This document shows positions 3,457 through 54,829 of a stretch of DNA of 64,000 bases, piece by piece (within the stretch, counting starts at the first letter, position 1; every line of letters begins with the position of its first letter). Position numbers and translations under genes: made by a program. The notes beneath the pieces are model-generated. The model was not told the origin of the DNA, ran no database searches, and was given only the letters and a program-made list of their open reading frames with translations. Origin of the DNA: Utricularia gibba (Eukaryota > Streptophyta > Magnoliopsida > Lamiales > Lentibulariaceae); NCBI GenBank assembly GCA_002189035.1, contig CM007989.1, positions 2,418,001 to 2,482,000 on the forward strand. Direction: 5' to 3'.

Positions 3457-5081
3457 TCATCCCTCACCGGAACTCTTTGCCAAAGCCTCGACTCTCGCCA
3501 GAGGCACCGGCGACAACCTTCAACAGACCGGGGCCGCCGGAGCGTGAAGCCCATACACATTCCATTAGCCGTTTTGTTATTTTAAAAGTGGCCCCAGGCC
3601 CATATGTCTCTTTATCTGGGCCCATAACATTATGGGCGTCCGTACGTTTCCGCTACATGGCCCAGGATCATTTATCCCATTTCTTATGATAAATAGAAAG
3701 TATTTACACATTGACCCCATTAGTTTAATAAAATTAAAATTCATTCATTTTCTTTATGAATTTTTCCCATGTCCCACAGTACACAAATTTAGTTGTGTTT
3801 ATGCATGACGTGATTGGAACCCCTGACCTAATTAATTAAAATAATGACAAATTAAATATTCTACTTTCTAATTTAGCAATAGATTTTCCTTATTTAACCT
3901 ATGACAGCGTATTTAAAACAGCGTTGACTTTTGAACATGCAGCTAGAACTAGAATGTGATTACGTAAGGGATACCATTTCCTTTCAAAATTAATACCAAT
4001 TTAATTTTAATGAATACCCACTTGATACTATTGAATTTTTTTCCACCAATAATCCGTAAAAATGCATTTTTTACAAAAAAAAAATACCAATTACATGTTC
4101 CGAAGAAATTCTATTAATGATTGGGACGTCGTATTAATCCATCCGACAAATGGATCAAGTTTAGGATATTGTCCAAACCGAACTCAACTCATAATCTATC
4201 TAGTTTTGAATTCGATTTAATTCATTATTAAGGGCATGTTATGTTTTTATAATTTTTTGAATTTGTTCTGTTTAATTTTTGAAAATTTTAATTTTTAAAC
4301 GCTCTATAATAAAACCATCAATTTAGATTCTGTAATTAATTTTAAAAATTATTGAACTTATTTAATCTATGTTTCAATGATTAAATAAAAGATTATTAAT
4401 AAAATTTATATTATTTTTTATCTATTATAAAAATATATTTATATTAAACTTAACAATATTTATTTTATAATCTTAAAATTGATTTTATTGTGCACATCTT
4501 CAAATTACATAACATGTCCTAAATCAAATCTAAAAATTTATGAATTCAAGTTGAATCGAATCTAACAAACACTTAGGATAGAGTTTGTTTATGATGATAA
4601 GATGCTTGTTTTTATTTTAATGTGCTTTATTGGGGAGTATTATTAAGGAAAAAGAAAACAAAAACTGTATTAGATATAGTTTTGGGGTAAAAATGATATC
4701 TTGATTTTGGTAATGTTGGAAGAGTTAATTGACCTATGCAGCTCGGCAAGGAGGGAAAATAAAGCAATTAAATGAAGAAATCTCAAGGTTCCATTGAGTG
4801 ATTCAGAATGCTGAATAGCAGTAAATGGCGCTGCTACTAGGAGCTTCAGAAAGTCAACAACGGAGGTCTGTAGATTGCTGTGGAACTGTGTTGCCAGTGG
4901 GGATCAGCAAGCTTCGTTTTCGATCAAGTTTAAGAGACCGAAGTTTTGAATGATTTCTTTTCACCACACGGTTCTTTTTATGATGCAATTGCGATTGACG
5001 TCAAAAGTATCGACTTGCTTTTTGATGGGACCTTCTTTTGGATTTCAAAGCTGCAATCTTTGATCCTTATCTGCGAAGAGT
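3457..5081. other. Divergent intergenic region between the PPR and CDPK genes
   Basis: This 1.6-kb spacer separates two divergently transcribed genes and is strongly AT-rich. It contains a Tourist-like MITE, annotated separately. The last 200-250 bases before 5082 probably hold the kinase promoter and 5' leader; an upstream ATG at 4946-4948 starts a 67-codon frame that overlaps the kinase start out of frame. No other gene is supported. Confidence 0.6.
4232..4519. mobile_element. Tourist-like (PIF/Harbinger) MITE, 288 bp
   Basis: The element begins GGGCATGTTATGT at 4232 and ends ACATAACATGTCC at 4519, terminal inverted repeats that match at 12 of 13 positions. It is flanked by the direct repeat TAA at 4229-4231 and 4520-4522, the three-base target duplication expected for PIF/Harbinger-type insertions. 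The interior is AT-rich and has no coding capacity, as in MITEs. A diverged relative appears to lie at about 47650-47985. Family assignment rests on the TIR and target site only. Confidence 0.75.
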
Positions 5082-7301
<2,220 letters not shown>

Positions 7302-24139: not shown

Positions 24140-24625
24140 TCACAGCCACAAAGCTCTGGCTTTCCTCAAACTGGACACCAACTCACCGGAGATGTGTGCA
24201 CGCACGAGATCCTCCAACCCTCCGAACAGTTCGCCGCCGACGAACAGCACCGGTAGGAGTGACGCCGCCACCGGCCTCTCACCCACGATCCTCGTCAGCT
24301 CCGATTCCACATCGCCCTCATTCTTGTCGTCCACGTCGAACAAGGCCGGGTTGACGCCGTGGCAATTGAGAAGCAGCTTCACCACGTAGCACAAGCAGCA
24401 GCCCCGCCTCGCGAACACGACGACGGCATTGTCCGCCACCGCCGTCTCCACGGTGGACTTGGCCGGAAAGGGATCACCCAGAAGCGCTTGATGATGCATG
24501 GAAACAAATTGTGATGATGATGTAGCGGTGAGGAGATGGGGAACCCTCCCTCCTTGTTCGTTAAAAAGGATGGTGTCGTCAGCGGCGTGGGGTAATACGT
24601 CACCGGCTGCTGCCGGCAATGGCAT
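24140..24625 (-). CDS. CC-type glutaredoxin (ROXY family)
   Basis: A single exon encodes 161 residues. Land-plant CC-type glutaredoxins interact with TGA transcription factors and act in development, defence and nutrient signalling. The active site reads GCCLCYVVKLLL with C76-C77-L78-C79. The thioredoxin-fold markers follow (LPVLFVGGELFGGLEDL, containing the glutathione-contact Pro and GG). The chain ends in ALWL, the C-terminal motif required for TGA interaction and TOPLESS recruitment in ROXY proteins. The N-terminal 55 residues are a variable low-complexity extension. The frame is intact and intronless, normal for this class. The number within the ROXY family is not assignable. Confidence 0.93.
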   Translation of the reverse strand: MPLPAAAGDVLPHAADDTILFNEQGGRVPHLLTATSSSQFVSMHHQALLGDPFPAKSTVETAVADNAVVVFARRGCCLCYVVKLLLNCHGVNPALFDVDDKNEGDVESELTRIVGERPVAASLLPVLFVGGELFGGLEDLVRAHISGELVSSLRKARALWL

Positions 24626-26176: not shown

Positions 26177-27538
26177 TCATGAAGATAAGCATGAGGAATC
26201 CATGGAGGAAAAACGCCTTCTCTTCTGAGTATAAAGGAGCTGCTGATCAAATTCTGCAGATGCAGATATGCTATTGAGGATGCCATTGAATGCGCTACGG
26301 ACAGAAAACTTCATAGCTTCCCAAGACTCAGCATTGTCGCACTGATCCCTAAACAACAGCACGCTCTTCACCCTGCCTCCCAATGTGGATACCTCACACT
26401 TGAGAACCATCAAACCGAGTTCATGCACTGCTTTCCGAATATGCGACATCAGATCATGCCGGTAGTCGCAGCAAAGGGAAGCCTTCATCAGCAGTGTCCC
26501 TTCATCTTCCACAATGTCTACTTTCACCTCATCAGAGTCCAGTGGAATGTGCGTGTCTTTGCAGGCTTGTGTTGCACTTGTCTTTAGGTGCTTTACTTGA
26601 TTGATCACTTCAGCCAACAAAGTTGCCTTGTCCATCTGTTAACCCATAAACCACAAAGTTGAAGAAGCTTGAGCTAGAAGAGAACAAGTCAAACCATCAA
26701 ATAAACACGCAGATAAACTTGCAACTTTGCTTTCATGGGGAAGGTTGCACTTAATGAAGGACAAGTAGCAGTTAAAGAAAGGGATATTTGGTAATAAACT
26801 ACGAACACACCGAGCTAGAGTCTATTCAAGTTGACAATCAGCCTATAGAACACATAGAAATTACACAGAAGTTGACTTTGAAAAACAAGATAATATAGTT
26901 TAAATCCTTGTCTTCTCTTGCATTAGTTGATCAACATTTAGAAGTTATGTACCAGGATACCATCAAGATTCAAGCTTGTTTTCATTTCTTTTGATCCCAA
27001 TGCTCCCCTATCTTACACATGCATTAGTTGATACCAATTCCAAGGAAGAAGAGTGCCCTATAAATTATCAAGTGCATGTTGGAAACCCCACCTCCATCAG
27101 AGACCAGCAACCAGTTGAAGTGCATAAAAAAGGATAAAGCATGCTGTTTTGATTAAAAATTTTAATGTGATTTGTTTGCTTTTGCGATATTGGATGGTTT
27201 TCGACTCATTGTACGCCTCAAAAACAATGTCATAAGCAAGATTGAACTCACCTTTTCATCGTGTGGAACGAGATCTCTGAGAGTAGCTAGATGGGCATTG
27301 ATCCTTTCTCTTCTTCTTCTCTCCGCCTCACTATGGCTTTTCAAAGCAGCTCTACTCTTGGACTCCAAAGAAGCACCCCCATCTTCTTTTCGTTTGTAGC
27401 TCCAGACCCCATAACCAGATCCTCTTTCTCGTCATCCAACACTAATGATTCATCAGCGGCTAAACCACTTCCCCAGTTTTCGCTAAACTTTCCAAAACTC
27501 AAGTCACAAGCAGCAGCAGCGTCCCCGCAATACATCAT
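26177..27538 (-). CDS. bHLH transcription factor, bHLH30/AIG1-like (apparent one-base frameshift)
   Basis: Exon 1 is 27252-27538 and exon 2 is 26177-26635, separated by a 616-base GT-AG intron in the helix-loop-helix. The bHLH reads SHSEAERRRRERINAHL, then LRDLVPHDEK joined to MDKATLLAEVINQVKHLK, with the basic-region H-E-R residues for E-box binding. The C-terminal part has an ACT-like fold (CDYRHDLMSHIRKAVHELGL, STLGGRVKSVLLF). The start frame (MMYCGDAAAACDLSFGKF to TNEKKMG) and the bHLH frame (GASLESKSRAALKSHSE) are offset by one base at a run of five C at 27376-27380; one extra base joins them with no stop. Restored length is about 248 residues. Start and intron phase agree only with the restored frame. 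Confidence 0.85.
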
Positions 27539-28954
27539 GCTAAGTATGATTTCGTGATGATAAACGAAAGCTTAAGAAACCCTTTTCAATCTAGACACAT
27601 AGCTCACACACTCCAGGAGGCCACGTAGCAAGGGAAAGCCAGAAAGAAAGCCTCTCTGGTCGAGTTGCAACACGAGGGAACTTGGAAACGATGAACGAGA
27701 TCATGATACCAAAAACACAGACGCGATTCTTAGAGGAACGAGTCATCAAAATGAAAGGAACAGCTTGAACTTCAACCGCATCACTTTCCTACTTGAACCA
27801 GAAGCGTTGATGGGTTTCAAGTGGATGCAACGCGTGCCTTCCCTTCCTCTTTATAGAACGGAAAACTCCCCCCCATCTTATGTCAAAACCTGGTAAAACT
27901 CAAACCCAATTGCAGTGAGAAGGTAAGTTCCCAGAAATTACCGCCTGATAAGCTCATGACCGTGAGTTCCTGGCTGGGAGAGGTACCGACAAGATATCCT
28001 TTTCAGCTCATAATGCACGAAATAATTGATTCTCCTTTCTTTAATGCAAGATTGTTTGACTTGTGAGATTATTGGGTAGCCTTGTCCTGGTTCATTTTAT
28101 CTTGTCTGGAACAACCCAGGAAGCTTCCTTGCATGCCAAAACCTTTATATTTTATTGCAATATGATTTTTTTTTCTTATAGAGAAAGTGATGTTGATGAG
28201 CACAACTTTGTAAATTGTGGTTGAACATAGTTATGATTAGATTATATAGTTTTTATCCATTAAAAAATAAGGAAAAAATAAGAAAATTGAGAATTTTGTT
28301 TTCAATAGTAAATTAAAATTAATAAATAATAAAAATTCTTTGATGATAAGAATTGATCACTTGAATTAAATGTTGATTTCAAAATTAATTTGAGATTTAA
28401 ATGCAGAACATGATAAGTATATAGATGAGTGTGTACCAATTTTTATAAATCGATTAAATTCCACTCATTAGTTTATTAATGGATTTTGATTAAATCATTT
28501 TGAAAAATGAGAAATATAAATAGTAAATTATTTTTTATAATTCAATTTAGTAAATGAAAAAATATAAATATGTATACACATTTTAAAAACTATTATAACT
28601 CAAAATTATATAGAAATATTCAAATATTATTATAAAATATATTTAAAATTTATGTAATATTTAAAAACATAAAAAAAAAACACAAAAAATAAGTTTCTCT
28701 GAGCTTGCGCTCCAAATCGTCGTCGAGAAACTCCAGCAAGAAATGGACATATTGCCGGCGAAAGCTGGGTCGGGATCGTCTCCGCGTTGGTGGGCGGAGC
28801 TCGAAATCCTGTTCGTCGGGGCTGCCTGATTCAAACCGGGGCGGTGACCCGCCCTTCATTTCTGTATTCTGGTTATGGATTTCTTGTCACAGACTGACAG
28901 TTGCGTCGTAACGACGCTCTCCCGGAGAAGAAAGACACTACTACAGTTCAAGAT
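27539..28954. other. bHLH promoter, AT-rich spacer and receptor-kinase 3' region
   Basis: About 450 bases upstream of the bHLH start are of mixed composition and include a TATA box. The region 28140-28690 is very AT-rich. A GC-rich stretch at 28700-28930 contains open frames on both strands (about 68 codons) with no family match; it may be 3' UTR of the receptor kinase or a decayed exon. Confidence 0.4.
27850..27855 (-). promoter_or_regulatory. Candidate TATA box of the bHLH gene
   Basis: The minus strand reads TTCTATAAAGAGG, a good TATA context, 312 bases upstream of the ATG. Confidence 0.45.
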
Positions 28955-31900
28955 TCAAGCTCCCAATCTCATCTCCTGCAAGGAGTACTTGAGGACTCTC
29001 TTCAGCGTAGCAACGACGTCTTTGATCTCGATTCTTTCACGAGGGTTTGCCATGGAACAGCGCAACGCCAAGTTCATCACTGAAGACAAGCAGTCCATTC
29101 TGACGGCCACGTTCGGACAGTTGCGCTTCAGCAGCCTTCCATCCACTGCCTCCATTGCTCCGTCAGCAACGGAATGCCTCACCCAATCCCTCAGGGTTAA
29201 CTCCTCTGAAAACTCCTCGGCCGTGGGTCTTTTCCCGGTGAACACTTCCATCAACAAAATGCCAAAGCTGTAGATGTCGCACTTGGTTGACACCAGGCCT
29301 TCACAGCCGTATTCTGTGCAACAAAAAGTCATGAAAGTCCTGAACTTTCCACAGGGGAAGGTTCAAAGGAGAAGAAATTACCTGGTGCGATGTAGCCCAA
29401 TGTAGCCATGGTAGCCGTTTGGGAGCAATCCATCCCTTCCAGTAGCTTAGCAATCCCAAAGTCACTCAGATGTGCAGTCATATCCTCATCCAAAAGTATG
29501 TTGCTTGGTTTGATATCACAATGGACGATCGGAGTTATGCAGTGCTCATGAAGATACTCGAGTGCACAAGCAATGTCGGTTACGATCGATAATCTCTGAA
29601 GGAGGTTCAAGAAATGATCTTCCCTGTGAAGCCATGTCTCCAGACTGCCCTTGGGCATGTACTCCATGACAATTGCTTTGATATCAGCATTAGAACAAAC
29701 GCTGATTACTCTGCAGAGGTTTCTATGGCGCAGGCTGCAGAACATTTGGCATTCTACATGGAAGCTTCTCAAGGCTCTTTCAGTTTGTACGTTGAATACC
29801 TTAACTGCAGCTATTTGTCCATCCATGAGAAGTGCTTTATAGACAGAACCATATGCTCCCCTGCCAATCAGGAGACCATTGTGGAGATTTGCAGTTGCCC
29901 GAATAAGCTCATAGTGTGATATGCGAGTCGGGCTTGCGACTAGAGGGAGCTCTTGCTCGACAATGTTCCTTGTGCGCCGCGAAGTCCATCTGTAGGCCAG
30001 GAACAGGACACATAACACACAAATAGCTGATACCAAAACAGAGACGGAAATGGCTATTCTTGGGATGTGGTTCCGGGGGTTTCTTGGTCTTTCCGTTGCA
30101 TAAGGAAGACAAGGAGGAAGCATTTGCCCCCCACAAAGACCCGGGTTACCAAGAAAACTATATGCTGTAAAAGTAGAGAACTGGCCCCCAACAGGGATAG
30201 GCCCTGAGAGAAAATTGTGTGCAACGTTGAACGTCGACAAGAAACTGAGTTCAGCCAAAGAAGATGGGATGCTTCCAGTCAAATTATTGAAAGACAAATC
30301 CAAACTTTCCAGGCTCTTCATTTCGGACAATGTGTCTGGAATAGGACCAGATAGGCTATTATGCGTTAAATCGAGAACATGCAACTCCTTCAGATTTCCA
30401 AACTCGGACCAGATGGATCCGTTAAGATGATTGTATGCAAGTGCCAGTGTTGGAGGAAACATTAAAAATCGTCTATAATAAAGAGCAGTTGTGTTCCGTC
30501 TCTTAAAAATAGGGAAGCCTGAGGAAACATCTTCACGCCTGATTACATTACCATTTATGAGGCTCTCCATTTCGGTAAGTTCAACAGGGATCTCTCCGGA
30601 CAACCTGTTAAAAGACATGTCTAAGTAAAAGAGTGATGACATGTTGCCAAACCAAGTTGGAATTGAACCAGTTAACTTGTTCACTGACAAATCTAACAGC
30701 TGCAAGTTCCTACACCTATTCAACCACTCAGGAATATGACCATGTAGATCACAGTCTGCAAGTACAAGTATCCTGAGTTCAGGGAACTGCAAACTGTTAC
30801 TACTTGGCATTTTCTCATCCCTGAAGTTCAGAGTAAGGAGTAAGGTAGTCAGATTTCGACAGTGCTGGAAGATCTCCAAGGCTCCAGTAATGTTAGTTAC
30901 ACTAGAATTCGAGAGAGAGATGGAAGAAAGGCTAGAAAAATTCTTGAAACTCTCAGGGATTTGCCCAGAAAAATTGATCCTTGCAAAGTTTATACTTCTT
31001 AGCAGTGGACAATTAGAAAGAGTTTCAGGAATCGGCCCATGAAAGCGATTAGTAGCCAAATTAAGCGAAACAAGTTTAACCATAGCTGAACAGTTAATAC
31101 TGATAGTACCATTCAGGGTATTGTTTCTCAGTGTAAGAGATGTAATTGTCTTAGAGTTGGCCAATGAACCCGGTATTCCACCTGTTAAACGGTTGGACTG
31201 AGCCGCAAAGTTTTCCAACTGCTCAAATCTGTGAAACACATCTGGAAGATGTCCAGAGAAGCGATTCAGAGACAAATCAAGGTTCACAAGCTTAGACAGA
31301 TTCCCAATACCAAAACTCAGCTGCCCTGAAAATTGATTCTCATGCAAATACAAGTCCTCTAACCAATGCAGCAGAAACAGATTTTCAGGCAGTTCACTGG
31401 TGAGAGAATTTGAGCCGATATAAAGTCTTTTTAATGAAGTGCAATTCCCAACTTCAGGAAAAAGTATCCCACTGAAATAATTGTCAGTCAAATCCAAAAC
31501 AGAAATACTGGATGAATTGATGCAGATACCAGCAGGAATTTGGCCGACGATTCGGTTCCCAGAAATATTGAAAATCTTGATAGATTGCAGGTTCATGGCC
31601 CTGGGTAACGGCCCGACTATGGAATTTGCGCTCAAATCCAAAATCTGCAACTTGGGCAAATGCAAAACCGAGACAGGAATCGACCCATTGAACATGTTTC
31701 TGGAGAGATTGAGAACTATAAGCTGATCCAGCATCCCCAACGATTCAGAGATGTTACCGGAAAGCCCTCTATTTCCAAGCTCCAGTCTTGCCACCCTACT
31801 GGAGTTGTCGCAATTGATACCCGGCCAAGAGCAGCAGTCGCCCAAATCAAAATCCCATTCAGAAAAACGACTCCTCGAATCAAGTCGCTCATTGAAACGC

Positions 31901-32049
31901 CTCAGGGAACTTAAGTCGGTGGCATGACATGCTGAGTTCGGGGCTTGTGAGGCAGAAGAAACCCAGAAGCCCATGAAAACCACGCACAGAACCAGCACAC
32001 TCATATTGCACCTCTCTACAATCAAAAAATGGGATACAATCATTACCAA
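28955..32049 (-). CDS. Chimeric LRR receptor kinase: PSKR1-type ectodomain with LRR-XII-type non-RD kinase
   Basis: Exon 1 (29382-32049) and exon 2 (28955-29313) encode 1008 residues; M16 is a likelier start because a clean signal peptide (MSVLVLCVVFMGFWVSSAS) follows. The ectodomain has the N-cap Cys pair (72-73), about 21 LRRs, and near residues 510-530 a PSK-receptor island (FPIFKRRNTTALYY before FPPTLALAYNHLNGSI). Segments such as ESFKNFSSLSSISLSNSS and FQHCRNLTTLLLTLNF follow Arabidopsis PSKR1 closely, as recalled. A membrane segment lies near 662-687. The kinase is instead of the FLS2/EFR/XA21 class: IGRGAYGSVYK, AAVKVFN, HCDIKPSNILLDEDM (843 on; Cys replaces Arg, so non-RD), DFGIAKLL, TLGYIAP. 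Its intron sits at GYIAP|EYG, as is typical for class XII; PSKR1 is intronless. Plasma membrane. Ligand and output are inferred only. Confidence 0.92.
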
Positions 32050-35000
32050 AATGAAGTTCTCTCATTGTTCTTTCACTGGAGTTCAGAAGTCTTGTCAACC
32101 AATCTGACCAGCTGACGGCACGGCGATAATGAATGTTTCAAATTGTGGAGACGTACGCTTTCAAATCCCGTTAATGCGTAGAATCGGTCGAAGTCCGGTT
32201 CGGCTGGGAACCGGAGTCAACACACATAATACCATTCTTTTAAAAAACAAAATCAAATATTTTTATTCTTAAATTGAAATGTAATAAATCATTATTTTTA
32301 TGTTCCTTCATATCATTAAACAACTAAATCACCAAATAACAGACATAAAAAAACCATATTAGCACTAAATAAATATTAAGTATTCATATAAGTGTATAAG
32401 CATCCGGTAAGTGATTTAAGATTTTAAATATATGATGTAAGATAAAATATATTTTATAATTTTAGATTTAAAATATATTTGATAGATGAATGTATATGTC
32501 TTATATTTTATAATGAAAAAATATTTGACTTATGTTTTTAAATGATTGGTTTTATATTTATTTTGAAATGAAATTGGGGGAAGGATAAATTATGAATTTT
32601 AATATATTTTAAATCAATTTTAAATTAAAATGACGTAATATCTTTAAAACCATTACATATAAATGTAGAATAAAATTCGTTCTAAACTTATCCGTGGAGC
32701 CATAAACGGCCTTATCAAACACACATTTAAATGAAAGACACTTCAAAAATACTATTAAATCACCCTAGGGCTTTAGGATTTCGAGCCAAGTTGAGTTTTA
32801 GCATTTTAAAGCTTAGATTCTACGAATTTTCATATACTCCTTTGAATTGAATTGTCGATTGATCTATGCGCATAAAAGCATGTATTTGAGTCGTGTTTAC
32901 GACACAAGTAGACCTTATTGTAAAAAACTTGCAGAAGTGAATCATTAGCTGCTCTTTTAATATTGTCATCTCAATTATTTGTTTGTGATTTTTTAGCTGG
33001 GGATAGATTACGTTGTTCTAACAGGATTTAGTGTTGGTCCCCATTGTTTCCCTTTGTCGGAAAGCAAAACACAGGTGCAGCTTATCTTATTCTGCTCACG
33101 GGTTGCAAGGAGTTGCGCACCGATGCCCCCACAGCGTCGAGAACTGGCGGAAGATGGAAGCCATGTGTTCTGCGTTGTCACAGGTTGATGAAGGGGCTGG
33201 TGAAATCCTTCAATTCTTGAGTTGCTCTTCCAAAATCTGTGGGGTTTTCGAAATGGAATGTCTGAATGATTGAGAGACAGTTAGTTGTCTGAGCTGATGT
33301 TTTCAAACCTCGACTGAAAACCAGTCACTCGATCATGGAGGCGCAACAGGGTTGTAGACATGGACACAGCAATGCTCGTGAATTGTGATACAACCAACAA
33401 GAGCAACGTCTGTCCCCACAAGAACATGCTCCTCGTTCTTTCCAGTCAATTGAGGCGTTGGAGAGAGCCCCATGGAAATCATTCATAGGGATTGTGGTGT
33501 ATGCAAGCAATCCTCTTTCATGTGATGCGTTTCCCATATTGAAAACATGTAAACTTTCCACTATCATAATAGCTTTTCCTGATAAAGCTCACACCTTTTG
33601 GTGCTACGGTCGAGATCTTTAGGGTTTTCGATTGACCCACCCAATTTCCATTGACCCGAAAACCAGTATACCATTTGGGTGACCCGATATCCCATCACCT
33701 TCACCTTTTTGTAGATCGACAATCCGGATTTTTGTCTTAACCAGCACACGTGTTTTTGTCTTAACCAGATTGCCTTGTCTGCTTTCGATACTTCAAAAGC
33801 ACTTGTGCATGCTGGCATTTTCTTTCTTCAATAGTCCCTTGTTCGGAGAAGAAGGTGGGGTTTTGGAGTAGCAGGGTCCCATCTGTAATTAGAGACAAAT
33901 GCGGGGGGTGATTTGCAATAAAACAAAATAATTCAATAATTAAATGGAGCACCGAATCAGCCAATCATTGTGTCGTTCTCATTAATTTAAGGCACGCATA
34001 TTCTTCACTAGTTGGGAGCCACGTGCCCAACAACACAACATAAAGTGCCCTAAATCACCCTGTCAGCACCACCCTTCAGCCCTAATTGCCCTTTCACATG
34101 CCAATAAAACACGTCTCAAAAGCATCACGCGCAATATCATTAATCAACGATTAATACAAAAAGTGATTAAATAAATCATAGGGTGTACGTTGCATGACAC
34201 CTGGCGCTCTACGATTGGTGCTCTAGTACATCACGCTTAGTTCTCTAGGGGCGGGCCCTACCACGAGATTCGAGAGGCACCCATCCCGGTTCACGTCTTC
34301 CTCATCTCGTGTTGTTGCACCTAGCTTTCTTTATGCACAAAATTAATGGTGATTAATATAAATAATTATAAATTATATCTACATTAAATATTGCGCTCCT
34401 GGTTTTTAATCTGGAAAATTCCAAATTTAGAAAAACGCGATAAGCAATAAAAAAATAATCAAAATCATTGATGACTCATTCATATCCTCAACGTCAACTG
34501 TTCGCTAATTACAGGTCATTTTTTAATTAAGTATGCTCACTTTTTTTCACACAGTCAAAAAAGGATCACTAGATATGTAACAAATTCAAAATGATAATGG
34601 TGGGATTAGGCGTATACAGTTAAATCATTCTCATTATAATAATCTAATTCTTCTAAATTAATTTTTATAATGATTAACGAACAAAAACCTATATATTAAA
34701 GATGATTTTAATGTAAATTGTATGATCTGTATGTTATAATTCAAATATATTATTAATTAAATCACGATACTTTAATCTCTGGACTTAGTAGAAGAATATT
34801 GTTGAAATCTATGCTTTCAAGCAACGGTTGATGTTGTGATGGGTGGATTTTGATTCATAAACTTAAGCCCCAATTCACCTTTGGAATATGAATAGACCTT
34901 CGAAATTCGATAACTCAAAATCATTAATTGTCATTAAAACAACATAAATTGACCAAATAATTTCTTTATTTATTTGGGAATGTATTTTATAAATGTTGCA

Positions 35001-36451
35001 ATCATGCATTAAAAAACACATTGAAAAAAATATATTTTTTAAAGACATGGATTCTGACTGTTCGGGTGAACCGGCCCCAGATACCCTCGGATTCAACCCG
35101 GGAACCACCGATTTGTGGACGGCTTAATATTTTTCTTGTAGGTTTGACTATTATTAATTAAATTATTCTAATGTTTTATGTATTAAATAGCTATTAAATA
35201 TAAAGTATTTCAATAATTACATATATAAAAACAACTGGATAATTGGCCATTGCGTAGGTTTGAACGCCTTATAATTTGTTTTTTAACTAATATTTAAAAA
35301 AATGGGGTAGGCGCATGCGAAAAAAGGTCGTTAATTTCATGAAATTATGGCTAGTTTTATAAATTAGAAAAATATTGGGACCGAATCGGAATTATTCATT
35401 CTATAAAGCGTTGTATTTTTATAAAATAGCGCGGCTAGTGTTCTTAATTCGTACGCCCTTTAGTGATCTGGGCGGCGCCACCGCAACCGTGCCGCTTCCT
35501 CGCTTCTCTCTCAAGTCTCCGTAATCCAACCACGGAGACTTTCCTGGAAGTTTTTTCTTTCTTTCTGTCTGGTTCCCGTTGAATTTCATACATTGTAACA
35601 CGTTTTTTTTCCTGAAAAAATGTACATACTTTTCGCGTAAAATTTTGTGGACAGTTGACAAATACGGCTGCCAGTTCGTTCCCGAGGGGCTTAAGGGTGA
35701 TCTCTTCGTTATTGATCTTTGATTAAGTATTTGAAGATTATTCGGAGATCTGTTGAAGTCGCGTTTGCTATTTCCAAATCGTTGCCATTTTGTTTTTCTT
35801 TCTTTCAAATGGGGATTTTCTTGGATTTTTGCGAGCACGGGAACAGAATCTGTGGAAGGGAAAGATTATTTACCGCCTTGATCATTCTGGTGATTGGTAA
35901 ATCCTTTATGCTGTACGGTGAAGCTAACTCTACCATGGGAGCTGTGTGTAAAAACTAGCTCTTTACGTTTATCAAGGAAATATTTTGGTTATGATCAAGT
36001 GCTTTTAGACGAAGGACGGCGCGGTAACTGCACCTTCCCGATTTGGGGAGAGGTTCACGTTTCAGCATCTCTTTTCTAGTGATGCTCTCCCAGTCTTCAG
36101 GTTTTTCTAGTTTCTGTTGTTCTTTCTTGTGTTTTTATAGTTTCAGACTTTGGATTTAGCATATCAGTATTGGGGAAAATAATTTCAGCTGCTTGGTCTA
36201 TTTTCAAATTCATTTTGATGTCCTGTTTGCCTCTAGTTTCCTTTTTGTAGGTTTCTAATTTTATGGCTGTACACTTGCTAATTCTCTTACTTTTCTTCTT
36301 GAATTTGTTTGGCAGATTTCAGTGACGAACCTCTCGTTGCATGAGAAGGTAGAGTAGTTGGGTTTTGTGAGAGCCTGTTGAGAGCAAGGTTTGGGACTGC
36401 TATTGCAATGTTGAAAGGCGACATCAATGTGGTCTAATTCGCACAGTTCAG
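32050..36451. other. 4.4-kb intergenic region and AUG8 5' leader
   Basis: This is the largest gene-free stretch. 32100-33000 is AT-rich. Around 33020-33290 and 33560-33970 composition is exon-like but no frame carries a recognisable domain; a 15-16-base direct repeat (TTTTGTCTTAACCAG, twice within 45 bases) sits at about 33730-33770. 34000-35390 is again AT-rich. From about 35430 to 36451 the sequence looks like the 5' leader, with one or more introns, of the AUG8 gene. Confidence 0.4.
35402..35407 (+). promoter_or_regulatory. Candidate TATA box of AUG8
   Basis: TATAAA in the context TTCTATAAAGCG. GC content rises about 50 bases downstream, consistent with a transcribed leader. The roughly 1-kb distance to the ATG requires a leader intron, so the assignment is tentative. 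Confidence 0.35.
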
Positions 36452-38762
36452 ATGGATGTATGCGAGCCAAAGCAAGTATTGCACAAGCAGTCTACATCTG
36501 CTGCAGCAAGAAAACCATTAATTTCTGCTGAAAACAAAAATGGATTTGCGCATGACTCTCGAACCACAGAAGCCACTTCAAGGCATTGGTCACCTACATC
36601 ATCTGTGGGCTCTAGTCAAAAGCGATATCCTTCACCAAATACAAGTAATATGTCATTTCCTTCTACTACATCAACACCATGTAGGGCGGCATCAGTTGAA
36701 AGAAAGCGCACTGTGAGGCAATCTTCGTCTACCCCAGTTCAGGATGCAACTGAAGGTGAGTTGTTTGTAAGGAAGCAATCCAGCAGTAAGTTACCAGAAT
36801 CCTTGTGGCCATCCACTATGCGGAGTCTGACAGTTTCATTCCAATCGGATGCGTACACTCTTCCAATTGGCAAGAAAGAGAAGCCTATTTCTCATGCGTC
36901 TTATGATCGTATGACGAGACAGCCATCAAATGTGACACATAAACAGGCAGAGACTACCAAGAAGTCCACTGCAGAGAGGAAGATGAGTCCACTCAAGGGA
37001 AAAGATTTTATGGATCAGCTGGAGAATTCAAAACCTGTTGATAACTTGCCACCTCATCTGGCAGATCAACAACTGTGGCGAAGCAGAACAAGTGGGAAAC
37101 TGTTAAATGCTCTAAATGGAAATTTTGAACTCATTGAGAAAACTTCAAAAATTCCATCATTATCATCATCAGTGGTTGGCTCCTCTTCACGGAGGAGATT
37201 CTCTTTGGATGGAACAACTAAGCCGCTATTTAAATCCTCCCGTGATTCGTTAATGCAGCTCCCTACTGATGACAATCCACACCCAAGCAAGAAGCTTGGC
37301 TCTTCAATGTCATCTGATAGGTTACGCTTGGGCAATGCTGCTGCTAGAGCTCTATATTCCCACACTTCTAGAACGCGCTCTCCTTCACCCTCTATATCTA
37401 GAGGTGATAATCCATCTCAATTTTGGGCTGCCGCACCACACAAGGGATCCCATACTACTAGGCTGAGGCAACCCAGCCCATTTCGGCAGTTTCAGCTTTC
37501 TAATTCTGTGTTAAGTTTTATTGTTGATATGAAAAAAGGAAAGAAAACTGCAAATCACATTGATGATGCTCATCAATTGCGGATGCTGTACAACAGATAT
37601 CTGCAATGGCGGTATGTAAATGGTCAAGCTGACGCTGTATTGCAATCCCATAAAGTGAAAGCAGAGGTTTGATCTCAATTTTTTTTTTTTTTTTCTGAGG
37701 CGTTCATTACTGTGAAATAATTTCACCTTTTGTTAGCATGAATTCAATGTGTCCTTGATTTCCATGTAATTTCATCTTTTAAATCTACAGAAGATGCTCT
37801 GCTCTGTCAGATGGCTAATTGCTCTTCTCTCAGACACGATACTACAGAAAACAATGCTTCTTCAGCAAGTGCATCTAAAATCGAAGCTTTACTCAATTCT
37901 GAATAATGAAGTAATATCCCTTTAGTTCATTCCAATTCTCTTGGTTCGAACATCCTGTTTTTTTTTTTTCATCTGCCTTTGTTGGTTACATTCTGCATTT
38001 TCAAACTTATATTGTGACACTTGTAGAGAATTCGTTTTTGTCTTTTCATATCTGTAATTTTATTTTATTGTCCATATCTCAAGAATCTGAAGCTAATCCT
38101 AGTGTTAACATGTTCAGCTAACATCTCTTGATGAATGGGCTTCATTTGAAAAGGATCACATCAGCAATGTATCCTGCATCATACAAGATCTTCAGGCTTG
38201 CACAATTCGCATTCCAGTCATGGCTAGTGCGAGGGTAGCCCTCATTTACTCACATTTGTTTATGTGAGAGGCATTTAAATCAACTAATTAATATTTTCAG
38301 GGAGAAGCCAAAGCCCTCCTGGAAGCTCTTTCCTCCGCCGTTGACATCATGCAGGCAATTGTCACCTCTTTGTGTCCCACACAGCAGAGGGTAACTTTAT
38401 GTGCAAGAATTTTCGCCATGTGTTTAGCTTCTTTAGTTCACCCTGCTGATTCCAAACAACTCAAAACTCTTTTGATTTTCCATTCGATGATTCTGGCCTT
38501 TAAGGTGGAGGAGATGAGCTGCCTTTTGTCTGAGCTTGCGGTTATGGCAGCACATGAAAGAACTTTTCTAAGTGACTGTGAATCGGCTTTGTGCAGCATA
38601 GACACGCTACAGGCAAGACATCATCGAAATTTTTTTCCCATTTTCGCACTGTCCTGCCTTCCCACTGTTTGTTCCATAATCATCTTTAATCTGTGTGCTT
38701 GGCAACAGATAGAAGAGTATAGCCTTACGACTCAGCTTCTACAGCTGAAATCTATCCCCTAA
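36452..38762 (+). CDS. AUG8: AUGMIN subunit 8 (QWRF-motif microtubule protein)
   Basis: Six exons, 36452-37666, 37791-37910, 38118-38234, 38301-38390, 38505-38612 and 38709-38762, give 567 residues. AUG8 is the microtubule-binding subunit of the plant augmin complex, which recruits gamma-tubulin for branching nucleation. The N-terminal 350 residues are Ser/Pro/Arg-rich and basic (RLPESLWPSTMRSL-like block KLPESLWPSTMRSLTVSFQS; ERKMSPLKGK), fitting a disordered microtubule-binding region. The conserved C-terminal DUF566 part starts near KKGKKTANHIDDAHQLRMLY with NRYLQWRYVNGQAD. The family motif QWRF here reads QWRY. MDVCE at the start also fits AUG8. The intron after exon 5 begins GC (CAG|GCAAGA at 38613), the standard consensus for GC-AG introns. 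Confidence 0.92.
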
Positions 38763-46061: not shown

Positions 46062-47510
46062 CTATTGATCTGTTGTTTCTGGTTCAGACAAGTCCTCATC
46101 TGTCATGATGGTTAGAAATTCAAGCGCCGTCACAATGTCTGCAATAAGAGGGCGGGTACTCGGCTCATCCTGTAGGCATGTTGCTGCTATGCCAAGAGCT
46201 TGATGAAGGCTTTTCACTGGATAACTTCCTTGCAGCAATGGATCCACCATTGATGTGAAGTTCCTCCTGTCCTTGAAAAGCGGTTGTGCCTGCAAAAGTT
46301 TTGGACTTTCATCATCTATGCGAAAATACAAAATCAGGCAGGGGTTGAACTGCTTTGCTGAATAAGATCATTGAGATGCATTTACCCAAGAAACGAGATT
46401 CTCCTCTTCAAGAGGCTTGGTGTTGTCGACCACTCTTCTTCCGGTGATAATCTGTAGGAGCACGACTCCGAAGCTGTAGACATCAGAGCTTGCTGTCAGT
46501 TGGCCGGTCTGAGCATACTCCGGTGCACAATAGCCATACATTCCCATCAACCTAGTTTCCTCATGGCCTACAAGTCCCGTCTTGGTTTGTCCGAATCCGC
46601 ACAGCTTAGGATTGAATTCATCGTCCAACAAAATGTTTGCTAGTTTCAAGTCCTGGAAAATGACTTGAGGGTTGACAGAATCGTGCAAGTACTCGAGCCC
46701 TTTAGCTGCCCCGGATGCTATTTTCATCCTGGTTTGCCAATCCAGGGGCGTTTTCTCTGGGGACAAGTCTTGAACACACGAAAAACCCGAGCTTCAATAT
46801 GAAGATATTTACATATATGTAAACTACATTGATAAACACTTACCAACTAAGTGATCCTCCAAGGATCCATTGCACATGTATTCAAACACAAGGATTCTCT
46901 GTTGGCCATCCGTGCAGTATCCAACCAAATTGACAAGATTCGGATGATGAATCGAACTCAATGTAACAATCTCAGAAAGGAAATCTTTGTTTCCCGCTGC
47001 CCCATTTCTGTCAAGCTGCTTCACAGCCACTGTCTGAATCCAAAACGAATGAAATGAGCAATTTACACCATGAAATGCTAACCAATTCATCGATCACCAA
47101 GAAAAAGAATTCACTTGATTTGTTCTCCGGATGATTCCCTTGTAAACTTTCGCAAATCCCCCCTCTCCCACAAAAAGTTCAGAACTGAAATTATCCGTCG
47201 CAACCGCCAACTCCCGAAAGGTAAAAACTTGCGCAGAAGGTGTCAAGGATCTATGCCTTAGCACATTTTCCGCAATTAACCGCTGCTTCCCCCGCCTAAA
47301 TAACATCAGCACATCCTCAAATTGACCCACAAACAAACGAACCCCAAAATCAGAACAAGAATGACGATTCTTACAAGTGTTCAACGAAATGCTTCTAGCG
47401 ATAGTCGATGATGCATCGGAATGATCATATTTGTTTGCGGGGGTGGTTCCAAAGATAGAACTCCGGGAAGATTTCAGCATTGTCTTTTTCATTGTCCCCG
47501 TTCTCCTCAT
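46062..47510 (-). CDS. RLCK-VII (PBS1-like) receptor-like cytoplasmic pseudokinase
   Basis: Exons 47115-47510, 46844-47033, 46386-46768 and 46062-46289 give 398 residues. The layout is that of PBL kinases, which relay signals from surface receptors: [34 protein letters not shown], then [16 protein letters not shown] and [11 protein letters not shown]. Key residues are changed. The third glycine of the P-loop is Ala, HRD is FQD (46650-46658, Asp kept), and DFG is GFG (46590-46598), losing the Mg2+-binding Asp; a pseudokinase is predicted. Exon 1 may itself contain a 79-base intron (GTAAGA donor at about 47374, TTATTTAG acceptor at 47296) that would be in phase only if the five-C run at 47289-47293 had one more base. 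The ATG at 47510 is the first in frame. Confidence 0.85.
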
Positions 47511-48401
47511 CCTGCAACACGTCACCGGAGCTTGCAATGCCTGTTTGAGGATTGACAAAGATCATCAACCTCCTGATTTCCATAGAAAAAAAACAAGAGG
47601 AAGAATGGATGGTCTGATTTGGGGAACAAGCAATGACCGTTAATATTATTAATATAAAGTTTCTTGTTTTATTAATTTTTTGAATTGATTCTGTGTAATA
47701 TTAAAAATTATAATATTTTATATTTTATATTAAAATTAGAAATTTAGATTTTATAGTTAATTTTAAAAATTATTGAATTTATGTTTTAAAAATTAAATAA
47801 TAAATTGATTAGAGAAATTATATTATTTATTTTTTATATATTCTAAAAATACGATTATATTATAATATTAAATTACATAATAATTTATATATTAATATTT
47901 ATAATATATATTTTATTTTATAAATTTTTAATCTAATTTAATGTTATCTCATAAAACAGCTTTACGATCTAAAACTTATTTTATTCACATAATTTCAAAA
48001 TTATTCTATCTTACATGATCTAAAGAACAACTTCAAATTGCAAAATAAATATTATATATTCGTTGCTAATTAATTAATTTATTTTTTATTGTGGAATTTT
48101 CATCCTCTGTATTTTGGGTCTTCTTAGTCCCGTCCGGCTGGCTTATGAAGCAACCACGTTGTTGCTAGGCACTCGTTCCGGTCATGGAGCAGATCCGGTG
48201 TCCGTCTCTAGGGACAGGGGCCAACTAATCAAAGCTCACACAATCCCGATCCCACACGTCACTCTCTCTATCGAGTTTCTTCAATTGGCGATCTCTTGGG
48301 ATTTGGGAATCCAGGATCCTATTGGGTTTCTTCTGTTCACCATCAGCTAATCAATTTTGACTTGGATTGTTCTGTGGTTGTGGAGGGCGTTCAGCAGAAA
48401 A
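47511..48401. other. Divergent promoter region with a degenerate MITE
   Basis: Lies between the pseudokinase (-) and TOM1-type (+) genes. 47650-47985 is AT-rich and resembles the interior of the MITE at 4232. 48110-48401 is the TOM1-type leader. Confidence 0.45.
47655..47985. mobile_element. Diverged relative of the Tourist-like MITE
   Basis: The stretches TTTTTTGAATT, AATTTAGATTTTATAGTTAA and TTTTAAAAATTATTGAA occur in the same order as in the element at 4232-4519. The ends are decayed (left TTTCTTGTTTTAT, right TTACATGATC before TAA), so the boundaries are approximate. Confidence 0.45.
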
Positions 48402-50665
48402 ATGCCAAGGACGCAATTTATCTTTCTTCCGGCGGCCACCGGAGTCGCTGGGCTGTGGGACGAGATCAATGATTCCGTTGAGTGGCAAGACGGCATATTT
48501 TTCACTCTCTGCGGTGTTTATGCTCTGGTTTCCGCCGTTGCTCTGGTGGGTATTGATTCTCTTGGTTTGGTGACGGTCTACTGGATTTGGTTTCTTTTTT
48601 TATCAGAATTCTTCTAGCTAGGGCTGGGTTTGTGGTTTGGTGTCCTTGAATCTTTTCAAAGAATTTTATTTTTTTTTGTCGTTAGCTGATGAGCATAGGT
48701 TCGCTCATAATGTTGTAACTCTGATTTTTTTTTTTTTTTTTGTAATGTTTGATAGCTGAAAGAGAACGATTTGCTTTTGGGTTCATGACATGATTGTGTT
48801 TTGCCGCTTTTTATCTTAAAAAAACGCTCACTTTTTGCATTTTTTCGAAAATGAAGCTCGTTTGGTGCTCTTACTAGATCAATCTCCTTCTTTGTGCATT
48901 ATGCTCATGATGCGTTTGCTTGCAGTTTCAATACATACGGATTGAGCTCAGGGTCCCTGAATATGGTTGGACCACTCAAAAGGTTTTCCATATTATGAAT
49001 TTCATTGTGAATGGATGTAAGAGAATGTCTCTGAATCTTTTCATCATGTTTTGCGTACTTGCATCGTCTTTATGAAAATTTATTGAATTGCAGTGCGGGC
49101 AGTTGTATTTGGATTTCACAAGCAAGTGTTTCTTTTTCATCCCAAGGTTAGGCTTCCTTAACCTTGTTTCACTTTGCAATGCTTTTAAGTTTAGCTCCAA
49201 TTTTGAACCATGCTTTTCGAAATAACACTACCTTCTCCATTTGGTGCGATATGGGATCCTGTTTTGACATTCTGCCAATTTACCGTACGTTTCAATATTA
49301 CTTTATTTTTCTAATAACAGGTCCTTGCTTTTGTACTGTTGGAACTTCCTGGATTGCTGTTCTTTTCTACATACACGCTTCTTGTACTTTTCTGGGCGGA
49401 GATATATCATCAGGTAAGTGGGCGGTTACAAATTTGAATTGAAAATGCTGGTGTTATCATGTAACTGGTATCCTCCTTTTCCAACAGGCTAGAAGTTTAC
49501 CAACAGATAAACTAAGGCTCTCTTATGTTTCTATCAATGCAGTGATTTACGTCATACAGGTTGGATATGATTTTACATTTATTAAAATAGTCATTGTGTC
49601 TACCTATAACTTTTATAATTATAATAATGTTGTCGCATCAGGTGTGTATCTGGATATACCTTTGGATAGATGATAACCCTGTTGCAGAATTCATTGGAAA
49701 GATATTCATTGCCGGTTAGTTGAGTTCTTTGTTGGTTTCTTTTTTCCTTTATGCTAAGGGAAAGGAAGGCTTCTAATCATTTTCAAAATAATATTCAGTG
49801 GTATCCTTCATAGCCGCACTTGGGTTTTTGCTTTATGGTGGAAGGTAAACCAATAGTTGTTCATTAATTTCTCCTATTCCCTTCTATTCCTTCTTCTCCT
49901 CGTCCATTTAAACGTCTGTTTCATTGTAGATTATTTTTCATGCTAAGAAGATTCCCTATAGAGTCCAAAGGGAGAAGAAAGAAGCTGCACGAGGTTTTTT
50001 TTCCCCCTTATGATGTCTGATAATATTCAGCACTCTTCAGTAATGATTTCAACTGTCTGGCTATAAGTTTCCCTTTTGGATGAAGTTATCACTTTCCACA
50101 ACGTGGTGCAATTATCTTAAGTCTTGAGTAGTTCATGCATGGATTCCTATTGACACCATTTTTTCAGTAGCTTTTTGGGTATCTCTTGAGATAATCTTAC
50201 CTTTTTTTGCAGGTCGGATCTGTAACAGCGATATGCTTCACTTGTTTTCTCATAAGATGCTTTGTGGTAAGTCAGATGTTCCATCTGCTCTACATATATT
50301 GTATTGCTTCCCAGTAATGATAACAGCACCAGACTGATAAAGACGAAGGGGCAGTTTTGCACCCATTTTTCTCCTCATGCTGACTTCCAGAGGTGTTTTG
50401 GGTGCAGGTTGTGCTCTCAGCATTCGATTTAGATGCATCTCTCGACGTTCTTGACCACCCCGTCTTGAACTTGATCTACTACACGGTATGTATGCATTCT
50501 TTCTTCCACCCCCTCCCCAGTATTCTCTGCTACACAGTTTGCTCAAGCTACTGATCTCATTTCGTGACACAGCTGGTTGAGGTTCTTCCGTCGGCCCTCG
50601 TCTTGTTCATCTTACGGAAGCTGCCGGCGAAAAGGGTCTCCGCCCAGTACCACCCCATCCGATAA
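48402..50665 (+). CDS. TOM1: TOM1/TOM3-type multipass membrane protein
   Basis: Eleven exons: 48402-48545, 48926-49016, 49094-49146, 49321-49413, 49488-49559, 49642-49714, 49799-49844, 49930-49993, 50213-50266, 50408-50485, 50573-50665. They give 286 residues with seven hydrophobic segments. TOM1 is a tonoplast host protein named because tobamoviruses need it for replication; its normal role is not well defined. Conserved blocks include [72 protein letters not shown], and ending [17 protein letters not shown]. Phases close throughout with GT-AG introns. The start at 48402 gives a normal length; an earlier in-frame ATG at 48357 would add 15 residues. This is a cellular gene with no viral sequence. 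Confidence 0.94.
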
Positions 50666-53127: not shown

Positions 53128-54829
53128 TCAACACTCCCCTTCAATTTCCTTTTCCACCTCCAGTTGCAGTTCGGAAATCTCGTCCATCTCCAATTCCACC
53201 TTGGGTTGCTGCAGTTTAGTGTCCTCCTCTTTTTCCAATTCCAATGGCAAAATGTCTGGTAGTGGTTGCTGCAAAATTGGCCGTTGACTAAGAGCGTCTT
53301 GTCCAAGCATGGACGACACACGGACCTCATTTAAAGCCTTCTCTGCATCCTCGCGAAGACTCTTGAGGGTGCTTAGGGTTCTATGTTTGAGTTCTGCTGC
53401 AAGATTAAGATCACCTCCTAGCTCTGCCTTCGTGATCTCCAGAGTTACCCTGTCAATCTGTCAACATTTTCATTATGTCGGACCCATGGGGTGGCTACTT
53501 AAGACAAGATTCTGAGGGTGCCTCATCTTGTATAGTTGATAACCTGGACATGATGTATTTTCCCTCCTCACTCAATTCGTCAAACCACTTCTTCAATGAA
53601 GACAGCTCTCTTTCAATGTCAGGATCGTTGTTCTGATCATATCCAAGAATTTTATCAACCTGCTTAATCCTCGAAGCAATCTCCATATTCAACCTTTCAG
53701 CCGCTGCAACAATGTCAATAGCTGCATCGAAGAAGAAAGAAGAGCAATTGCCAGTAGCTTTTACTTCTTTCTAATCCAAGAATTGTTGAATGACAAGGCA
53801 TGAACTTCCTACCCTCCTGGAAAGCGTCGGTTTCAGTTCCCATCATAATCCGCAATAGTTTGAGCAGCTTCTTTCCTCGAACAAGCCCATGAATCACCAA
53901 AGGCATTAGTAAATCTACGGTGTATGTATAATCTGTCCCAATTCCCCATATGAGCTCCAATATCATAGTTAGCAAACAATTGAGGAAAAACTTACGTCTG
54001 GGAGCACCGACCCTTGAGATTGCAGTCTCAACTGCAAGCCGTAGGCGTTCAAAGGACAGATAGACAGATTGGAAGAGCTCCTTTTCGATGTGATGATTAT
54101 GAGTATAAGCAAAGAGAAGATGCCAGGATGTGGTTGATGAGCTACCATACTTATCTCGGTACATTCTTGCATGGTGTATCAAAGATTCCAAGTGAGTTCC
54201 CAAGTGGGGATCATGCAAATCATGAAGAATCTGCAAAGGTTGATACACAGTAACTTGGATCATTAATGTGATCGAACCTCATGTATCATCATGGATACTC
54301 AATTCCGAGAATGCAAAGACAATCCAAGAAAACCGAAGGGCATAAATGAAACCTGAAGATATCAGTATATACAAATTACACGAGCAACTTAGAAAAAAAA
54401 AATTGAATGAACCTTTGGATTCCTCTGAATGTATATCTCAGTAGCATCGAGAACCAAGTCAGGATATACCCAAGCCTCCATAAATACGTGACGAGCTCGT
54501 CCATCCTCTTGCATTAGAAGAGCTTTCAACAAATGCTCAGGCTCAACTGCAATATTCTTGTTCACTCGTGCTACTTCACGCGATAACAGGATTGCTTGCC
54601 ATGCCTCTTCGCTGAAATCCTGCTCCCTTAACTGGATGACGCATGCACCAAAACACTTCGTGTTACAAAAATCAGAGAACCAGACAGTATGACAAATTGA
54701 GGTATCACTTACGCTGCTCCAACTCCAAGATGCATCACAACGGATAGCGAAGGATCGGTTAACCACGCGGTTGCGCGATTTTGTAGCAAACCTTGATGAA
54801 TCGTTTCTCCCGCGAGATCCACAGGACAT
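53128..54829 (-). CDS. ClpB-derived protein lacking both AAA+ ATPase modules
   Basis: Exons: 54713-54829, 54413-54631, 53996-54230, 53813-53914, 53522-53721, 53128-53457, 400 residues. ClpB/Hsp100 proteins are hexameric disaggregases built as N domain, AAA1, coiled-coil middle domain, AAA2. Here a transit-like N terminus (Ser/Arg-rich) is followed by a ClpB N domain (DFSEEAWQAILLSREVARVN, EPEHLLKALLMQ, ESLIHHARMYRDKYG). A short unrelated segment (exon 4) comes next, then the ClpB sequence that begins the middle domain (AIDIVAAAERLNMEIAS) and its continuation IDRVTLEITKAELGGDLNLA with AAELKHRTLSTLK. Walker A, Walker B and all of AAA1 and AAA2 are absent. A new acidic Leu/Glu-rich tail ends EIEGEC. 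The intron before 53457 starts GC (53521-53520), inferred because IQDE|IDRVTLE reproduces the ClpB order. It could alternatively be a decaying gene. Confidence 0.82.

Follow-up and report, generated by a model that had tools for sequence, protein, structure and literature searches.

In the phytosulfokine (PSK) receptor PSKR1, a member of subfamily LRR-Xb, PSK stabilises the island domain of the ectodomain, which binds the co-receptor SERK1 with participation of the last leucine-rich repeats (LRRs), as described in PMC6749341 and PMC10834447. In Arabidopsis, some flg22 responses are reported to be lowered by PSK in a PSKR-dependent manner (PMC11658183). EFR belongs to subfamily LRR-XII, and its non-RD kinase can, once phosphorylated, activate BAK1 allosterically according to PMC8463890 and PMC11259431. 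Man et al. (2020) report that maize has gene fusions and a converted kinase inside clade XI_XIIb, which means that exchange of a kinase half is a kind of event already known (PMC7318236).

Here, we describe a locus of Utricularia gibba in which an LRR-X and an LRR-XII receptor appear to meet in one gene. It lies in a stretch of 64,000 nucleotides (the window, C1:2418001-2482000), for which an original prediction, made from the letters alone, had proposed a PSKR1-type ectodomain on an immune-type kinase. In the open-access papers searched, judged mostly by title and the start of the abstract, we found no natural X/XII fusion.

Results

The fusion gene is encoded on the minus strand in two exons, with the ATG at 32004, the stop codon at 28955 and a product of 993 amino acids. 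A second in-frame ATG is present at 32043; the start at 32004 is the one that aligns with PSKR1 starts. Exon 1 (29382..32004), defined by the open reading frame and the gene model, encodes the signal peptide, the ectodomain, the membrane segment and the kinase as far as GYIAP and the first base of a Glu codon; none of 200 mononucleotide shuffles of this exon stayed open. The 68-bp phase-1 intron (29314..29381; GTAATT...TTGCACAG) runs GT..AG from 29381 to 29314 inside the Glu codon of GYIAP-E-YG. It occupies the LRR-XII position, as its position and phase match most LRR-XII places of the same genome. Exon 2 (28955..29313) supplies, by the gene model, the remaining kinase C-lobe, the C-tail and the stop. 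The region (28955..32049) and the HCD motif had been predicted correctly, and the predicted class XII intron at GYIAP|EYG could be placed precisely, in phase 1 within the Glu codon, as in 11 of the 13 LRR-XII places of the plant.

All further features lie on the same strand. A putative signal peptide covers about residues 1-22 (31939..32004), judged by position and by eye from the hydrophobic start; the structural model has a low-confidence helix at 2-16. It is followed by the LRR ectodomain (residues 23-632; 30109..31938), assigned to the PSKR1 type by searches, structure matches, trees and DNA comparison. Alignment and model place the island domain at about residues 484-520 (30445..30555), with hairpin strands at 499-503 and 507-511 of low pLDDT. 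The membrane segment spans about residues 650-670 (29995..30057), with a hydropathy peak of 2.89 at 650-668. Searches, motifs and trees define residues 694-993 (28955..29925, spanning the intron) as an LRR-XII non-RD kinase, in which HCD replaces HRD at residues 828-830 (29515..29523; translation and motif comparison). Scanning the window for Rfam families and tRNA genes gave no matches, and the repeats near the gene, which were examined, held nothing that accounts for the fusion.

When residues 1-645 were searched against a protein database, 7,984 of the 8,000 proteins scored were returned. The best 120 listed showed 33-65% identity (median 53%, local BLAST), and the top identities among them, 60-65%, belonged to PSKR1 of Lamiales. 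By E-value, the leading rows were long proteins with summed repeats. Among these 120 proteins, a motif script recorded HRD in 99 and HCD in none; the other 21, in which it found no motif, were kinase-less, truncated or missed by the pattern. PSKR1 also ranked first among solved structures (632 bits). An AlphaFold model of residues 1-640, based on a 44-row alignment (mean pLDDT 90, pTM 0.84; low confidence for the island strands around 499-511), had PSKR1 crystal chains as its first seven PDB matches, with TM scores by query length of 0.87-0.91; the remaining 43 listed matches reached 0.41-0.69. The island domain is followed by four LRRs, as in PSKR1 (counted visually beyond residue 520, on the strands of the model), and in comparison with LRR-XII ectodomains this island-bearing ectodomain falls outside the XII type.

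An ectodomain tree was built from 31 PSKR1-type rows, 6 PSKR-like rows without a kinase and 24 rows of XII; the XII side split off at 100 and the query fell within Lamiales PSKR1. Its sister is the PSKR1 of the same plant (100/100), with Genlisea PSKR1 next (100/99). The two U. gibba ectodomains share 75.2% amino-acid identity over residues 23-608, and over 585 codons we obtained a dS of 0.53 and a dN/dS of 0.29, both pairwise values being averages over the two lineages. Polarised with an outgroup, 42 changes fell on the fusion and 29 on its PSKR1 sister (binomial p 0.15), which indicates that the ectodomain copy in the fusion is not evolving freely.

An origin of the ectodomain from a receptor-like protein (RLP), with a kinase-less PSKR copy as intermediate, was considered and found no support: six RLP rows, one of them (P0074) with only 10% of columns filled, scatter in the PSKR1 tree, and the query groups with the plant's PSKR1; a kinase-less intermediate may have existed. 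The complete kinase places the gene outside the PSKR-clade LRR-RLPs, and the stretch before the membrane is basic, not acidic, and lacks GxxxG, unlike the RLPs characterised in PMC10834447.

The PSK contacts were taken from the list given in PMC11994915, from which 16 positions were mapped; a 17th, At F514, was left out because it mismatched A. lyrata under the best numbering offset (16/17 matched). In the fusion, 12 of the 16 residues are as in the PSKR1 of U. gibba and 11 as in Arabidopsis lyrata. Relative to the former, the contacts (12/16) are no better kept than the ectodomain overall (75%). The four differences from this PSKR1 are D417 (S there), K501 (V), L389 (I) and A507 (G). By contact mapping, D417 (30754..30756) is located at the PSK sulfotyrosine contact and corresponds to At N434 in the numbering of the paper; none of 96 PSKR1 proteins has D here, all having N or S. 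K501 (30502..30504) lies at a PSK backbone contact in an island strand and corresponds to At M517, where 2 of the 96 have K. The two residues carry opposite charges, both at the peptide site. Judged from the sequence, these charges may weaken or alter PSK binding, and in a sulfopeptide pocket they may also permit sensing of a mimic instead of PSK. The contact Trp At W458 is V441 in the fusion, V in the PSKR1 of U. gibba and M in Genlisea; the idea that this change marks an inability to bind PSK was withdrawn, as both of these PSKR1 proteins lack the Trp too. In the last LRRs, QFST fits the QxxT/S loop described in PMC10834447.

The kinase half was searched with residues 600-993; of 7,999 proteins scored, 4,530 were returned and the best 120 listed. 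Residues 691-993 are 35-56% identical to these (median 54%, local BLAST), and the motif is HCD in 113 and HRD in 3 of the 120. Across the halves, identity was lower: the fusion kinase reached 30-43% against the kinases of the ectodomain matches (106/120 giving a kinase match), and the fusion ectodomain 28-36% against the ectodomains of the kinase matches (119/120 giving a match). The Gly loop, VAIK Lys, alpha-C Glu, HCD, DFG, APE and the subdomain VIa Tyr are all present. In a comparison set of 100 of the best 120 kinase matches, those of 780-1260 residues, C829 of the non-RD catalytic loop is shared with 96 and the subdomain VIa Tyr, Y817 in the fusion, with all 100.

A kinase tree of 23 PSKR1 and 53 XII rows separated PSKR1 from XII at 100 and put the query on the XII side. 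A second tree (28 flowering-plant XII, 3 PSKR1 and 3 gymnosperm or fern XII rows; two of five of the last kind, being without the motif, were dropped) nested it within flowering-plant XII (100/99), in a clade of Lamiales XII kinases (96/98). A forced grouping with PSKR1 kinases was rejected on this second tree (p-AU 0.0008), where, as a caution, the long branches of fern and PSKR meet; without the gymnosperm and fern rows the AU test gave p 0.45, the query being attachable anywhere on the long branch between the sides. The fusion kinase itself sits on a long branch (0.57-0.89).

We then compared both halves with the plant's own genome (100,091,633 bases in 516 contigs). Its canonical PSKR1, at C142 (L002), has 1006 residues from the ATG in one open frame, with HRD and GYIPPEY; this gene is RD and intronless, whereas the fusion is non-RD and has an intron. 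Thirteen LRR-XII-like kinase places are 54-67% identical to the fusion kinase, and 11 of them have a phase-1 intron at its position; of the other two, L018 has none by the pattern used and the match at L022 is incomplete. In a tree without L022 the fusion kinase joined 10 of 12 of these places at 83/100, a support not starred in the tree, with L018 and L019 outside; no single sister was resolved among the 12. Against six of these XII genes, dS was 1.4-1.8, near saturation, and dN/dS 0.11-0.17, which is near the 0.11-0.13 of three pairs among the ordinary XII genes; the direct donor of the kinase may be gone. Among the best candidates scored, only two ectodomains exceed 70% identity, and the next-best PSKR1-type kinase (63%) is that of a PSY1R-like gene on C505.

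DNA comparison located the join. Likeness to the plant's PSKR1 sets in 17 bases ahead of the ATG and extends to 30108 (79.6% over 1914 columns), and likeness to its XII genes begins at 29932, which puts the switch around the membrane segment. An 82-column DNA match to PSKR1 reappears in the conserved kinase core. The junction (residues 633-691; 29932..30108), defined by profile and DNA comparison, matches neither family by DNA and comprises the outer juxtamembrane, the membrane segment and the inner juxtamembrane; the profile comparison alone gave residues 608-689. A DNA search with 29900-30240 matched only the locus itself and the PSKR1 end, and in about 1.5 kb upstream no likeness to the PSKR1 locus was seen beyond the 17 bases.

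Taken together, the separate trees, the DNA likeness to both parental families within one genome and an intron specific to the subfamily support, at the level of sequence, the reading of the gene as a PSKR1 (LRR-Xb) ectodomain on an LRR-XII non-RD kinase. The predicted PSKR1-type ectodomain with its island is thus borne out by the sister relationship and by the PSKR1 structures that matched first. The halves fall into different subfamilies (LRR-Xb and LRR-XII), not one, when trees are built separately, and the foreseen switch at 29990-30100 lies inside 30108-29932. The expectation that canonical PSKR1 is RD and intronless agrees with the HRD and single open frame of L002. The label FLS2/XA21-class kinase stood as to the LRR-XII clade and the non-RD type; as to its FLS2 part, the named proteins among the best 120 kinase matches are mostly At3g47570, Xa21, At3g47110 or EFR-like, and the kinase trees contained no FLS2 orthologue.

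These comparisons show that the PSKR1 ectodomain was copied after the split from the Genlisea lineage and that the copy is now joined, at the membrane-proximal segment, to an LRR-XII kinase half that has its nearest kin in the same genome and carries the LRR-XII intron. The fusion looks lineage-specific: among 346 relatives listed by three protein searches (best 120 of each), 114 have a PSKR-type ectodomain only, 207 an XII kinase only and 25 neither by the cut-offs used, and none has both. The third search, with the junction, was dominated by summed LRR repeats, and a remote counterpart could be missed in this survey.

In-place replacement of the kinase within a genome-duplicate block was also tried as an origin and rejected, as the comparison of neighbours supported no synteny. 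Open reading frames of the window have PSKR1, kinase pieces and one further neighbour, presumably a TOM1/3-like gene, in common with 70 kb around the PSKR1 of C142. The TOM-like exon of the window is closer to C409 (77%) than to C142 (62%). A duplicate block on C321 aligns by DNA at 28719-28837, 33935-34018, 35361-35480 and 35637-36099, and at the protein level at QWRF; between the aligned parts, its kinase similarity to PSKR1 or the fusion is no more than remote (26-28%). A stretch of C413 compared with the open reading frames of the window gave no match, and a search with the glutaredoxin neighbour revealed no block.

Both halves are well kept, slightly less so than in ordinary members. The ectodomain retains 178 of 188 invariant columns (94.7%), the lowest of the 96 PSKR1 proteins that define the set (those of the best 120 with 940-1080 residues and HRD) having 95.8%. 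For the kinase, the XII set has 71 columns with 95% invariance, and the fusion keeps 66 of them (93%); the XII median is 98%, and six of the 100 XII proteins are clearly lower. The frame contains no stop, compared with 14-29 expected under neutrality at an assumed 0.15-0.3 changes per site.

Discussion

Our main reading, to which we give a probability of roughly 0.55, is that the fusion is a working receptor that connects a PSK-like ligand via SERK to an immune-type output. The ectodomain would bind a sulfated PSK-like peptide between the LRR face and the island domain, and the ordered island together with the last LRRs and their QxxT/S loop would bind a SERK co-receptor as in PSKR1. The non-RD kinase would act like that of EFR, as a phosphorylated partner and allosteric activator of the SERK kinase, and the activated SERK would feed BIK1-class and MAP-kinase outputs. 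As both parental types use SERKs, the halves would be compatible without a new partner. The net effect would be that a peptide which normally promotes growth and damps some defence responses, or its look-alike, raises an immune-type response. Since PSK lowers some flg22 responses, as stated in PMC11658183, an immune kinase on a PSKR1 ectodomain would give the signal the opposite sign; a growth signal, or a look-alike, may thus be wired to a defence response. More tentatively, and with the odds somewhat against it, the fusion could be an evolved rewiring, in which PSK has become an immune trigger via the LRR-XII kinase or the altered pocket protects PSK signalling from mimics. The gene would then be a natural counterpart of laboratory swaps, selected in a lineage that has few immune receptors.

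The residues D417 and K501 in the sulfopeptide pocket also suit a different idea, that of a decoy or mimic trap which answers a foreign PSK look-alike, or interference with PSKR1, and not the plant's PSK. Kinase-less proteins with PSKR1-like ectodomains are listed in other plants (P0071, P0093, P0095, P0098, P0109). XA21 is reported to respond to RaxX and not to PSY (PMC8872720), and for RFO2, which has a PSY1R-like ectodomain, such a role beside PSY1R has been proposed (PMC3662643). We regard this idea as plausible but less likely than the main reading, because the majority of contact residues is kept and the polarised changes of the ectodomain amount to at most a mild acceleration. Furthermore, we know of no PSK mimic from microbes of U. 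gibba, which also counts against it.

Still less probable is that the fusion merely dampens PSK signalling, binding PSK and SERK with little kinase output and competing with PSKR1 for ligand and co-receptor. Such a competitor would be in keeping with a non-RD kinase on a long branch, with invariant columns somewhat below the XII median, and with an ectodomain and QxxT/S loop that are largely kept. A pure sink would not need the catalytic residues, the VIa Tyr and the low, XII-like kinase dN/dS that the gene has retained, and this constraint on the kinase makes a pure competitor less likely. Fusions of LRR-RLKs to other domains are described as typically restricted to a single taxon and probably soon lost (PMC7318236), which would agree with a decaying, functionless by-product of recombination; this is very improbable here, as the gene has reached a dS of 0.53 to PSKR1 with no stop or frameshift and both halves bear signs of constraint. 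An assembly artefact fusing two different genes is hardly credible: the 177 bp at the junction without a DNA match to either family would suit it, but the frame is open across the join with domain borders in register, the ectodomain differs by 25% from the plant's PSKR1, the window contains no N bases and lies inside an 8.5-Mb contig, and a misjoin should have left the kinase of a second PSKR1 copy elsewhere at high identity, whereas among the best candidates scored in the 100-Mb assembly no leftover PSKR1-type kinase was found and the close one lies only at C142.

The contributions of ectodomain and kinase in plant LRR receptors have been learned largely from man-made swaps. A natural and constrained swap across subfamilies raises directly the question whether the kinase half alone decides between growth and immunity. 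The system is unusually testable, as the plant's PSKR1 (C142) and LRR-XII genes (C1, C4 and others) are present in the same genome as controls.

Comparison with known systems

Among described receptors, PSKR1 (LRR-Xb) resembles the fusion in its ectodomain, island domain, most PSK contacts and predicted fold, and the PSKR1 of U. gibba is its sister; the fusion differs by its non-RD LRR-XII kinase, the intron and a partly absent inner juxtamembrane stretch. With LRR-XII receptors of the At3g47570/XA21/EFR class it shares the kinase, HCD, the phase-1 intron and a juxtamembrane motif, but not the ectodomain, which is non-XII and has an island domain. XA21 likewise couples an LRR-XII kinase to the perception of a tyrosine-sulfated peptide, RaxX; according to PMC8872720, it does so with its native ectodomain and without a response to the host hormone PSY, whereas the fusion uses the ectodomain of a hormone receptor.

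RFO2/RLP2 beside PSY1R and the engineered nPcR also combine a sulfopeptide-receptor-type ectodomain with an immune-type output, and an engineered PSY1R-RFO2 chimera is reported to cause constitutive resistance (PMC3662643). RFO2 and RLP2 are kinase-less RLPs and nPcR is man-made in that account (PMC3662643), whereas the fusion is a natural receptor kinase derived from the PSKR1 side. In maize, Zm00001d023611 likewise had its kinase half exchanged for that of another LRR-RLK; as described in PMC7318236, this exchange took place inside clade XI_XIIb, and the LRR part is truncated and partly pseudogenised, whereas the fusion combines two subfamilies and has a full ectodomain. The laboratory chimeras EFR-Cf-9 (PMC6637901) and RLP23-BRI1 (PMC10834447) also pair one receptor's ectodomain with the signalling part of a second; these were engineered, whereas the fusion of U. 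gibba is natural.

Genomic surroundings of the fusion gene

The DNA immediately past the stop of the fusion gene (window 28719-28837) is 82% identical to C321:682757-682875, on another contig of the same genome, and is part of a block shared with C321 that reaches as far as the QWRF gene. Because the C321 counterpart of this stretch comes after kinase-like pieces, the fusion gene may lie on, or adjoin, the remains of another gene.

A Pfam scan covered 20 of the 42 listed window ORFs of at least 110 aa, together with the fusion. As neighbours of the fusion it identified a PPR protein with E motif (1432-3456), a protein kinase that is CDPK-like by eye (5082-5861), a glutaredoxin (24140-24625), a bHLH ACT-like protein (26177-26635), the QWRF gene (36452-37672), Clp_N (54389-54829), WRC (59214-59759), ribosomal S5 (61206-61859) and Dof (62771-63505). 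Translation revealed several pieces of a receptor-like cytoplasmic kinase on the minus strand (46300-47600), presumably class VII/PBS1-like, with a Pfam kinase match for one piece. Since FQD replaces HRD and GFG replaces DFG in the translation, it looks like a pseudokinase.

Related receptors in the U. gibba genome

LRR-XII copies (L010, L012-L017 and L020) are clustered at C4:1.70-1.89 Mb and C1:3.31-3.32 Mb of the U. gibba assembly (G000). Several of them closely resemble one another, and L015 contains an internal stop. The plant family of this genome has been reported to have few immune receptors. In addition, the genome encodes L007 (C3:2154498-2156078), a receptor protein that is PSKR-like but lacks a kinase and is roughly 760 residues long.

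TOM1/TOM3-like genes

Two genes, which we take to be TOM1/TOM3-like, are found at window 48911-50551, 17 kb from the fusion, and at 4203-5744 of locus L047, adjoining the canonical PSKR1 on C142. The window copy is more similar in sequence to a copy on C409 than to the C142 copy, so their proximity to both the fusion and PSKR1 may be a coincidence. In Arabidopsis, PSKR1 and TOM3 are located close together.
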